Source: Phreatobacter stygius
GTDB taxonomy: Bacteria > Pseudomonadota > Alphaproteobacteria > Rhizobiales > Phreatobacteraceae
Length of the DNA stretch: 64,000 nt
Assembly (NCBI RefSeq): GCF_005144885.1
Contig: NZ_CP039690.1
Coordinates: 5,779,001 to 5,843,000 of the forward strand
Direction of reading: 5' to 3'
The translations under genes and the position numbers were made by a program. The notes under the pieces are model-generated. The model made no database searches. It had not been told where the DNA came from and was given only the letters and a program-made list of their open reading frames with translations. Positions 38,114 to 43,520 of this stretch are shown in pieces. Positions within the stretch are counted from its first letter, which is position 1. The number at the start of each line of letters is the position of its first letter.

Positions 38114-40666
<2,553 letters not shown>

Positions 40667-40715: not shown

Positions 40716-40739
40716 ACCTTCCAATCATGGGAAGGTCAA
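40716..40739 (-). promoter_or_regulatory. CueR-type operator/promoter of copA
   Basis: ACCTTCC-N7-GGAAGGT (40716-40736) is the classic CueR/HmrR dyad. Read leftward, TTGACC (40739-40734) is the -35 element embedded in it. The 20 bases 40721-40740 are identical to 43352-43371 before cueR. The site lies 50 bases upstream of the copA start. Confidence 0.85.
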
Positions 40740-40766
40740 GGGCGCGCAGTCGGCTTTTTTCAGCCC

Positions 40767-40791
40767 TTGACCTTGCCATGGTTGGACGCCC
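40767..40791 (+). promoter_or_regulatory. degenerate CueR-like element before copZ
   Basis: TTGACCTTGCCATGG on the plus strand matches the CueR promoter pattern (-35 TTGACC followed by a weak dyad, then a 19-base spacer) but the right arm GGACGCC is poor. It may allow weak copper induction of copZ, 41 bases downstream. Confidence 0.4.
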
Positions 40792-40831: not shown

Positions 40832-41041
40832 ATGAAATTGCGTATCGAGAACATGACCTGTGGCGGCTGCGCGCGCAGCGTCACAAAGGCCATCCAGTCG
40901 GTTGATGCGAAGGCCGAGGTGGTCGCTGATGTCGTCAGCCGGACCGTCGAGATCCATTCGCCGAAATCCGCCGAAGCCTTTGTCCAGAGGCTGGCGACGG
41001 CCGGTTATGCCGCCGTCGAAATCGCCGGCGGCGCAGCCTGA
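40832..41041 (+). CDS. copZ: copper chaperone CopZ-like heavy-metal domain protein
   Basis: This 69-residue single HMA domain has the Cu(I)-binding motif MTCGGCARSV (Cys10 and Cys13) and the fold pattern KLRIENMTCGGC...VDAKAEVVADVVSRTVEIHS...RLATAGYAAVEI. An excellent ribosome-binding site AAAAAGGAGG precedes the ATG. It lies divergently next to copA and would hand Cu(I) to its N-terminal domains in the cytoplasm. A hairpin (41058-41101) separates it from the convergent oxidase gene. Confidence 0.93.
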   Translation: MKLRIENMTCGGCARSVTKAIQSVDAKAEVVADVVSRTVEIHSPKSAEAFVQRLATAGYAAVEIAGGAA

Positions 41042-41181: not shown

Positions 41182-42705
41182 TCACGCCTTGACGTCGACG
41201 ATCCCCATCATGCCAAGCTCCTCATGTTCGAGAATGTGGCAGTGATACATGCGCTGCCCCGGCAGGTCCTGCCGGATCAGCAGTCGCACCGTTTCGCCAT
41301 GCGCCACGTTGACCGTATCTTTCCAGGCCCGGTAAGCGGGTTTGGTGACCCTGCCGTTGCGCTCCCGTTCGACCCATTGGAACTGTGTGCCGTGAACATG
41401 GAACGGGTGGTCCATGTCGGCCTGGTTGACGATTTCCCAGAGTTCGACCTCGCCGGCCTTGGCGACAATGTCGACGCGCTTCATGTCGAAGGCCGCGCCA
41501 TTGATCAGAAACGCCATCGTCATGCCGCTTGCGTCCATCCCCATCGTCTCGGTGAGCACGAAGCGGCGCGTCTGCGCGGGGGCGCCGAGATCCTCGATCG
41601 TGCGCAGCCTGTCCGGCAAGGGCGGAGCCGGCTCGGCTGCCGCCTGCGCGACATTGACGGAGAGTAGCGACATCGAGGCATCGGCCGGCCGGTGAGGCCC
41701 CATCCAGCCCCGGTCGTAGTCGAGCGTGCGCAGGGTCGCCTTTCCGGCCTTGCCGAACGCGACGATCACATCGAGCCGCTCCGCCGGTGCAAGGAAAATC
41801 TCGTCCGCCGGGACGGGCTTCTCCAGCAGGCCGCCATCGGTTCCGATGACCGTGATCGCCGCGTCCTCGAACGACATCCGCAGGAAGCGCGCGTTGGTGG
41901 CGTTGAACAGGCGGAAGCGGCGTTTCGTGCCGCGCAAAACCGACAGGGACGGGTTCTTCTGGCCATTGACCAGGACATGGTCGCCGACACGGCCGTTCAT
42001 CAGATCGACCATCGTGCTGTCAGGCATGGTCCCGTCGGCTGCGAGGCGCAGGTCGGTGAACACGAGCGGAGTGTCGCCATATGCGACGGGGATCGGATCG
42101 ACCTTCGGCTTGACCAGGAAAATGCCGGCGAGCCCGCGATAGACCTGGCTGGCCGTCCGGCCATGGGGATGCGGGTGGTACCAGTAGGACCCGGCACTGC
42201 CTTCCGGAAGGCTGAAGCGGTAGGTCCGTTCCGCCCCTGATGCCACCGGGTCCATCGGATTGCCGTCCTGATCGGCAGGCACCGGCATGCCATGCCAGTG
42301 GATCGTGCTCTCTTCGCCGGGAATCCGGTTGGCGAAGATAATCTCGACCTGATCGCCCTCGGTGACCGCGATCAACGGGCCCGGGCTCAGGCCGTTATAG
42401 CCGAGCACCGGCGTGTCGAGGCCCGCGGCGAAGCGGACCTTCGCGGGCTGGGCGGTGAGCCTGGCTTTGAACACGCCCTTGGCTGCCGCCTGGTTCACGA
42501 GGCGCGGCAGCTCACGCAGCGGTGCGCCTTCCGGCAGCGCCACGGCGTTCGGGGCCGATATTGTATGGCCCCCATGGCCCCCATGCCCCCCATGGCCCCC
42601 ATGGCCGCCCATGCCATGGCCGCCGGTCATGTTCATCTGGGCGGATGCGCGTGGGCTTGCGAAAATCGTTGCCACGCCCGCCGCGAGAAAGCTGCGTCGA
42701 TGCAT
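41182..42705 (-). CDS. periplasmic multicopper oxidase (CueO/CopA-oxidase type)
   Basis: This 507-residue oxidase would convert Cu(I) to less toxic Cu(II) in the periplasm. The signal region is MHRRSFLAAGVATIFASPRASA, with an RR pair suggesting Tat export. The mature protein opens with a His/Gly/Met-rich metal-binding tail (residues 24-47, several GGH units). The three cupredoxin domains carry the four copper-site motifs HWHGMP, YWYHPHPHG, HPFHVHG and HCHILEHEELGMMG, complete for one type 1, one type 2 and a type 3 pair. It is transcribed leftward, with cueR starting 49 bases upstream in the same direction, so cueR and the oxidase are probably one transcript driven from the promoter at 43340-43370. 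Confidence 0.94.
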   Translation of the reverse strand: MHRRSFLAAGVATIFASPRASAQMNMTGGHGMGGHGGHGGHGGHGGHTISAPNAVALPEGAPLRELPRLVNQAAAKGVFKARLTAQPAKVRFAAGLDTPVLGYNGLSPGPLIAVTEGDQVEIIFANRIPGEESTIHWHGMPVPADQDGNPMDPVASGAERTYRFSLPEGSAGSYWYHPHPHGRTASQVYRGLAGIFLVKPKVDPIPVAYGDTPLVFTDLRLAADGTMPDSTMVDLMNGRVGDHVLVNGQKNPSLSVLRGTKRRFRLFNATNARFLRMSFEDAAITVIGTDGGLLEKPVPADEIFLAPAERLDVIVAFGKAGKATLRTLDYDRGWMGPHRPADASMSLLSVNVAQAAAEPAPPLPDRLRTIEDLGAPAQTRRFVLTETMGMDASGMTMAFLINGAAFDMKRVDIVAKAGEVELWEIVNQADMDHPFHVHGTQFQWVERERNGRVTKPAYRAWKDTVNVAHGETVRLLIRQDLPGQRMYHCHILEHEELGMMGIVDVKA

Positions 42706-42753: not shown

Positions 42754-43188
42754 TCAGTGCGCGGGCCGCCGTTTCGACGGCTTGAGCGGCCCGGCCGCAT
42801 GGCCCTTCGAAAGCTCTTCGATGATCGGGCAGTGCGGGCGGTCGTCGCCCTGGCAATGTTCCGCCAGATGGCGCAGCGTTTTCGACATGTCGCGCAGCTC
42901 GCGCATCTTCCGCTCCAGTTCCGCGACATGCCCGAGCGCGATCTGCTTCACCTCGGCGCTGGCCCGCGAGCGGTCGCTCCAGAGCGCGAGAAGATGGCTC
43001 ATCTGTTTGACCGAGAAGCCGAGGTCACGGGCGCGGCGAATGAAGCGGAGCGTGTGAACATCACTGTCCGAATAGACGCGATAACCGGATCCCGTGCGCG
43101 ACACGTTGGCGACTAGGCCGATCGATTCGTAATAGCGGATCATCTTGGCCGAGACGCCGGAGGCCGCTGCAGCTTCGCCGATATTCAT
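42754..43188 (-). CDS. cueR: MerR-family copper-responsive regulator CueR/HmrR
   Basis: This 144-residue activator has the MerR N-terminal helix-turn-helix (MNIGEAAAASGVSAKMIRYYESIGLV), the coiled-coil dimer helix (VAELERKMRELRDMSKTLRHLAEHC) and a C-terminal metal loop with Cys in EHCQGDDRPHCPI, the CX7C arrangement of copper-sensing members. It twists promoters with a 19-base spacer into an active form when Cu(I) is bound. Its ATG overlaps the stop of a 39-codon ORF (43185-43304) in an ATGA arrangement. Targets seen in this window are the boxes at 40716-40739 and 43340-43370. Confidence 0.93.
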   Translation of the reverse strand: MNIGEAAAASGVSAKMIRYYESIGLVANVSRTGSGYRVYSDSDVHTLRFIRRARDLGFSVKQMSHLLALWSDRSRASAEVKQIALGHVAELERKMRELRDMSKTLRHLAEHCQGDDRPHCPIIEELSKGHAAGPLKPSKRRPAH

Positions 43189-43304
43189 GCTTCGGTTCCT
43201 TGTGCCCGGGCGTGGTCCGGGGTCTGCCGGTCGCTGGCCGTCACCGGCATCCAACCGTGAACGGCGATCGCGAACGGAGATCTTGGTTGGCTCGTGGCCG
43301 TCAT
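43185..43304 (-). CDS. short leader ORF overlapping cueR
   Basis: This 39-residue ORF starts at the ATG whose complement is 43302-43304, preceded on the coding strand by GGGAAGGGAG about nine bases upstream. Its stop TGA shares bases with the cueR start (ATGA), the mark of translational coupling. The peptide begins MTATSQPRSPFAIAVHGWMP and has no Cys, two Met and two His, so it is not an obvious copper binder. The CueR-type promoter at 43340-43370 places transcription start some 30 bases before this ORF, making it the first cistron. It may only couple translation to cueR, or be a real small protein. Confidence 0.5.
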   Translation of the reverse strand: MTATSQPRSPFAIAVHGWMPVTASDRQTPDHARAQGTEA

Positions 43305-43339
43305 GGTCGTGCAACTCCCTTCCCGGGTGGTTGCCCCAT

Positions 43340-43370
43340 TCCATAAAGGTTCCAATCATGGGAAGGTCAA
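43340..43370 (-). promoter_or_regulatory. CueR-type promoter of the cueR/oxidase transcript
   Basis: Read leftward: -35 TTGACC (43370-43365), a 19-base spacer with the dyad CTTCCCATGATTGGAA, then -10 TATGGA (43345-43340). The 19-base spacing is diagnostic of MerR-family activation. The outer part of the right arm departs from the consensus (GGTTCC for CCTTCC), so this may be a weaker site than that of copA. Confidence 0.8.
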
Positions 43371-43440: not shown

Positions 43441-43471
43441 AAAAAAAAGCCCCCGGAGAGATCCGGGGGCT
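43441..43471 (-). terminator. intrinsic terminator of the amidohydrolase operon
   Basis: AAGCCCCCGGA pairs with TCCGGGGGCTT around a GAGA loop. On the minus strand the stem is followed by an uninterrupted run of seven to eight T. It lies 50 bases beyond the stop at 43521 and is a textbook Rho-independent terminator for that leftward operon. Coordinates are accurate to about one base. Confidence 0.9.
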
Positions 43472-43520
43472 TGGCGCCTGTCAAAGATGCGACGGCTGTT
43501 CGGTGATCGGCCGACCCGTA

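Follow-up and report, generated by a model that had tools for sequence, protein, structure and literature searches.

The window (the whole stretch of Phreatobacter stygius DNA that was analysed, 64,000 nt) contains a copper gene cluster in which cueR is followed by a multicopper oxidase gene on the minus strand. Both were assigned by profile match, and the regulator scores 176.8 bits against the TIGR02044 CueR profile (cut-off 147.4). The protein contains CQGDDRPHC, a C-x7-C pair that is presumably the copper-binding pair of CueR; its gene has its own Shine–Dalgarno-like AAGGA. The N-terminus of the oxidase carries a Gly/His-rich repeat (GGHGGHGGH), encoded by a short repetitive stretch at 42560–42640. 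The features of the locus are as follows.

38114–40666, minus strand: copA, at a different place in the cluster; it has a CueR box of its own (40717–40739) and an unrelated leader
40832–41041, plus strand: CopZ-like HMA-domain protein, with a divergent CueR-like box (40767–40789)
41182–42705, minus strand: multicopper oxidase, downstream of cueR
42754–43188, minus strand: cueR, copper-responsive MerR-family regulator
43185–43304, minus strand: 39-codon ORF, interpreted as a scar whose peptide is not conserved; its ATG is at the place of a copA start and its TGA overlaps the cueR ATG
43305–43339, minus strand: putative copA-type leader, assigned by likeness to leaders of the Mesorhizobium group and by a model that includes the window
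43340–43370, minus strand: CueR-type promoter, TTGACC, 19 nt with operator, TATGGA, assigned by pattern scan and by a spacer kept in relatives
43447–43472, minus strand: intrinsic-terminator-like hairpin 5′ of the promoter (one site against a shuffle mean of 0.8, weak alone)

The −35 element TTGACC (43370–43365) is separated by a 19-nt spacer (43364–43346) from the −10 element TATGGA (43345–43340); the original prediction had placed a promoter with this spacer upstream of a short ORF, and it is present. The pattern TTGACCTTSCCATGRTTGGAAGG, allowing at most three mismatches, has three sites in the window versus none in 100 shuffles; the other two face copA and the CopZ-like gene. The operator dyad matches the ACCTTCCC-(5)-TGGAAGGT type at 14 of 16 positions, with TGGAACCT in place of TGGAAGGT, and the spacer has the 19 bp of this promoter type. 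The same spacer length is retained in the promoter of the nearest relative, a genome of the same genus (G006), and in the copA promoters of the Mesorhizobium group. By its pattern, the promoter at 43370–43340 is real, and copper-type, CueR-driven expression of cueR appears likely. It had been proposed that CueR drives both its own synthesis and that of the oxidase. This is consistent with a CueR-type promoter that would read into both genes and has a terminator-like hairpin before it. The contrast drawn with genomes in which cueR is expressed separately did not survive: copA lies co-directionally and at most 400 nt upstream of cueR in 54 of 91 cueR loci, and cueR autoregulation is therefore ordinary. 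Of these loci, 80 come from genome contigs and nine are further loci of the same genus, the remaining two being the window and G006; not counted are three loci below 50% identity, L012 and L015 as duplicates, and L017, which has no cueR. A divergent copA-like gene adjoins cueR in nine of the 91, namely the nine same-genus loci. In PMC1526738, the hmrR gene is described as usually second in actP-hmrR, together with the 19-bp spacer and dyad.

The ORF starts with ATG at 43304–43302 and ends with TGA at 43187–43185, overlapping the cueR ATG (43188–43186) as ATGA. A GGAG (43318–43315) sits 10 nt upstream of the ORF start (43304). The predicted ORF, its ribosome-binding site and its overlap are thus present. 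Among dinucleotide shuffles of the leader, however, 6.3% contain an ATG-initiated ORF that has 39 codons or more and stops at the cueR ATGA, and 18.6% do so counting GTG and TTG starts. A TGA in the overlapping frame is located right at the cueR start in 90 of the 91 loci. The junction is uninformative because the second codon of CueR starts with A.

In copA-cueR-oxidase operons of the Mesorhizobium group, copA starts with the same promoter, hairpin, ribosome-binding site and ATG as the window leader. Our initial view of the ORF as a chance reading frame in a plain leader was revised because the locus L024 (Mesorhizobium sp. 1M-11) has the same leader and ATG. Over promoter and leader together, 13 copA leaders are identical to the window at 45–49 of 60–62 positions. 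Five cueR leaders that lack copA (described below) are identical at 42–45 of 60–61 and that of genome G873 at 48 of 60. The promoter part separates the two kinds (24–27 of 31 for copA versus 22 of 31 for copA-less cueR); the leader part alone does not (19–24 versus 20–23 identical). When aligned with the window leader, ten leaders of the group score 12–21, with at most 2 in 1000 shuffles as high. Five of six unrelated control leaders score 5–6, among them the leader of the window's own copA (6); the sixth (L163) scores 12, with 1 in 1000 shuffles as high. That copA is itself nearer to the copA of Aquamicrobium, Telmatospirillum and Paracoccus (75–76%) than to the operon copAs (66–68%). The codons after the window ATG gave no alignment with the 5′ coding part of copA from six operons (56 to 297 of 300 shuffles as high). 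For the remainder of the ORF, compared with the end of copA plus spacer, a likeness is possible in three of nine operons, two of them nearly identical, which lie at 31–56 of 954 null scores; the other six lie at 270–786.

The leader hairpin is formed by the arms GCAAC (43334–43330) and GTTGC (43315–43311) and an inner stem (43327–43325/43319–43317), with the Shine–Dalgarno sequence GGGAG inside. Across 17 leaders the arms and inner stem are paired in 94.0% of cells, against 26.3–45.5% when slid; shuffles reach 94.0% in 78 of 500 cases. The covariation score is reached by shuffles in 27 of 500 cases, with four cells changed on both sides; the two pairs changed on both sides are matched in 107 of 500, and 471 of 500 have as many pair types. 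From these alignments, the hairpin is conserved and its covariation is weak. Searching 73 sources with a model built from the 17 leaders recovered the copA leader of G840; this leader was absent from the building set and stands at the start of a copA-cueR-oxidase operon. Outside the group, the 73 sources gave no match below E 0.9. No Rfam family was detected near the gene at the gathering threshold. The −10 element and the hairpin are five bases apart in all 17 leaders, which puts the foot of the hairpin at about the expected transcription start. The hairpin may act in translation or mRNA stability. Within its own genome the window leader has short matches only (best E 0.0115). Elsewhere in the class, five of 384 other genomes have matches of 25–44 nt (E 1.7e-4 to 9.9e-4), located within the ORF part.

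Among 146 genomes of the genus of G266, which is probably Mesorhizobium, five carry a copA-type leader in front of a copA-less cueR (G250, G266, G833, G865 and G910), and in all five the oxidase follows cueR. From the leader ATG, a frame of 23 codons (G250, G833 and G865) or 24 codons (G910) runs to the cueR ATGA; G266 has no ORF, its leader directly abutting the cueR ATG. Differences among three of the short ORFs are spread evenly across codon positions, so the peptides show no sign of selection. G266, G833, G865 and G910 also have a copA at a separate site, with a leader of this kind and no cueR in the fetched stretch. In G873, an intact promoter, leader and start precede a decayed copA and then the oxidase. 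The remnant is recognised by tblastn with the CopA N-termini of two operons (E 2.5e-16 and 2.5e-17) and at the DNA level (72–74% over 180 nt); the first frame ends after MTAVTP, where copA reads MNAVTP. G873 is a case of copA decay in progress. In the stretch fetched from this genome (L189, G873:C398:5000-11000), the decayed copA is at about 205–490, and no cueR lies between the intact promoter and leader and the multicopper oxidase. In our reading these loci form a series: operons of this kind have repeatedly lost copA, their first gene, while retaining its start signals, and the window would belong to that series. We note that CueR/HmrR-type boxes also precede His-/Cys-rich ORFs of at least 300 codons in three of the loci examined, L236, L237 and L244 (near 1500), and that many genomes of the G266 genus have matches to the box only.

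The CueR of G006 is 92% identical to that of the window. G006 has kept the promoter, and its leader is 84 nt shorter. The sole start codon in that leader touches the −10 element, before the point at which transcription is expected to begin, and is unusable. Aligned with the window leader it scores 12 (4 in 1000 shuffles as high). No oxidase was found beside cueR in the fetched 10.5 kb (L262, G006:C3:44000-54500), in which copA, copZ and cueR lie side by side. In the window, copA and the CopZ-like gene are divergent with a CueR-like box each (40717–40789), and the same pair occurs in G006. The window CueR is 82–85% identical to CueRs of the Mesorhizobium group and, G006 excepted, 51–62% identical to those of its own genus (nine loci); these identities hint that the locus may have been gained horizontally. 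In the CueR tree, the window and G006 (100/99) are separate from the five copA-less genomes (85/99 with 31 rows, 100/99 with 26). A joint clade of the two groups, and with it a shared ancestor that already had its own box, is not rejected (AU p 0.151), so that we only infer the loss of copA in the window lineage itself. The same test (AU p 0.151) gives no support to the idea that the window lineage lost copA independently of the five copA-less genomes.

The explanation that we consider probable, though far from certain, is that the region upstream of cueR represents the transcription and translation start of a copA gene whose body has been lost, the ORF being the scar. Cu(I)-CueR would activate the 19-nt-spaced promoter at 43370–43340, giving an mRNA that begins near 43333 with a short hairpin carrying the Shine–Dalgarno sequence of copA. 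Ribosomes would initiate at the old copA ATG (43304), where initiation is likely since leader, ribosome-binding site and ATG resemble copA starts, and would translate the 39 leftover codons. Having stopped at the TGA overlapping the cueR ATG, they could re-initiate on cueR, aided by its own AAGGA. CueR and the downstream oxidase would then be induced by copper together, in positive feedback. The peptide would have no selected function, and coupling would be a by-product or of mild benefit. It is possible that the ORF meters cueR translation, as had been suggested, and such coupling may recur among copA-less loci, because four of the five copA-less genomes carry 23–24-codon ORFs ending at the same ATGA.

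The coupling could instead be the reason that the ORF persists, kept by selection as a device whose sequence is free and whose strong copA-type start and ATGA end set the amount of CueR per mRNA. This would fit the leader ORFs of 39 (window), 23, 23, 23 and 24 codons, each of which stops at the cueR ATGA. Once in frame, however, an open frame has a chance of 0.45–0.82 for the five ORFs, so selection for coupling is unsupported; moreover four of these five ORF-bearing loci belong to one clade, G266 and G006 manage without an ORF and the window cueR has its own Shine–Dalgarno-like sequence. We regard such selection as rather unlikely. It is improbable, too, that the ORF is an untranslated chance frame in a plain leader, with cueR translated from its own site only. 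The yield of such ORFs from shuffled leaders (6.3% with ATG, 18.6% with any start) is in its favour, as are a codon usage reached by 31.8% of wrong-frame windows and the absence of unusual stability or structure in the whole leader (z 0.18), but this reading leaves unexplained why leader, ribosome-binding site and ATG look like a copA start.

The ORF could also be taken to encode a small protein induced by copper, or a leader peptide that senses copper in the manner of CutF or CruR, because it has a start codon, a ribosome-binding site and a promoter of the copper type. The peptide itself argues strongly against this. It has no match in Pfam, NCBIfam or 72,556 plasmid records. A search of 297 genomes of the order (its own included) gave, besides its own match, weak scattered matches only, in 34 other genomes (E no higher than 0.1, best 0.006); the 11 other genomes of the genus had none. 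It contains no cysteine and no hydrophobic segment (top 15-residue mean 0.92), its C-terminus is DHARAQGTEA, and the codon score of the ORF is below those of all 39-codon windows of four neighbouring genes. Compared with 13 of 14 other overlapping ORFs (20–119 codons; L011 omitted), only that of L024 gave a low value (7 of 300 shuffles), which we discount because 13 tests can yield this by chance. Conservation of the ORF in relatives, a check named beforehand, thus failed for the peptide, and G006 keeps the promoter without a usable leader start. On conservation, codon usage and motifs we reject a small protein or leader peptide, and the overlooked copper-induced protein of the original prediction is very improbable.

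If the loss of the copA body is correct, a regulator can gain the full expression signals of its target gene merely by loss of the body of the target. The leftover ORF then mimics a leader peptide, a caution for small-ORF annotation, since a shared start signal does not mean a shared peptide. It also names a directly testable hairpin in copA mRNAs. A bolder proposal, which we rate as speculative and unlikely in its entirety, is that this conserved 5′-end hairpin with its Shine–Dalgarno sequence on CueR-activated copA mRNAs is an undescribed translation or stability control element of Mesorhizobium-group bacteria; after copA loss, cueR would capture element and start codon through a short disposable ORF, giving translationally metered positive feedback. 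Among open-licence PMC papers, no paper on this leader or scar was found by title or abstract.

The closest known systems are the copA/actP-cueR/hmrR operons, including the copA-cueR-oxidase operons of the Mesorhizobium group, with the same promoter type, leader and cueR-oxidase order; expression of cueR from a CueR promoter is described in PMC1526738. The window differs in having no copA between leader and cueR, the leader ATG opening a 39-codon frame instead. Two copper-responsive upstream ORFs offer a further comparison. CutF of the CutF-CutO system of Rhodobacter capsulatus (PMC9973294) is likewise a short ORF in the leader of a multicopper oxidase operon; the window ORF lacks its CxxxC, signal peptide-like segment and C-terminal proline-rich motif, and is separated from the oxidase gene by cueR. 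CruR (bp2923) of Bordetella pertussis (PMC9426467) likewise heads a copper-responsive operon; the window ORF has no CXXC, RAPP motif or DUF2946 match. The CruR operon is reported to be turned down by copper, whereas the window operon should be turned up.
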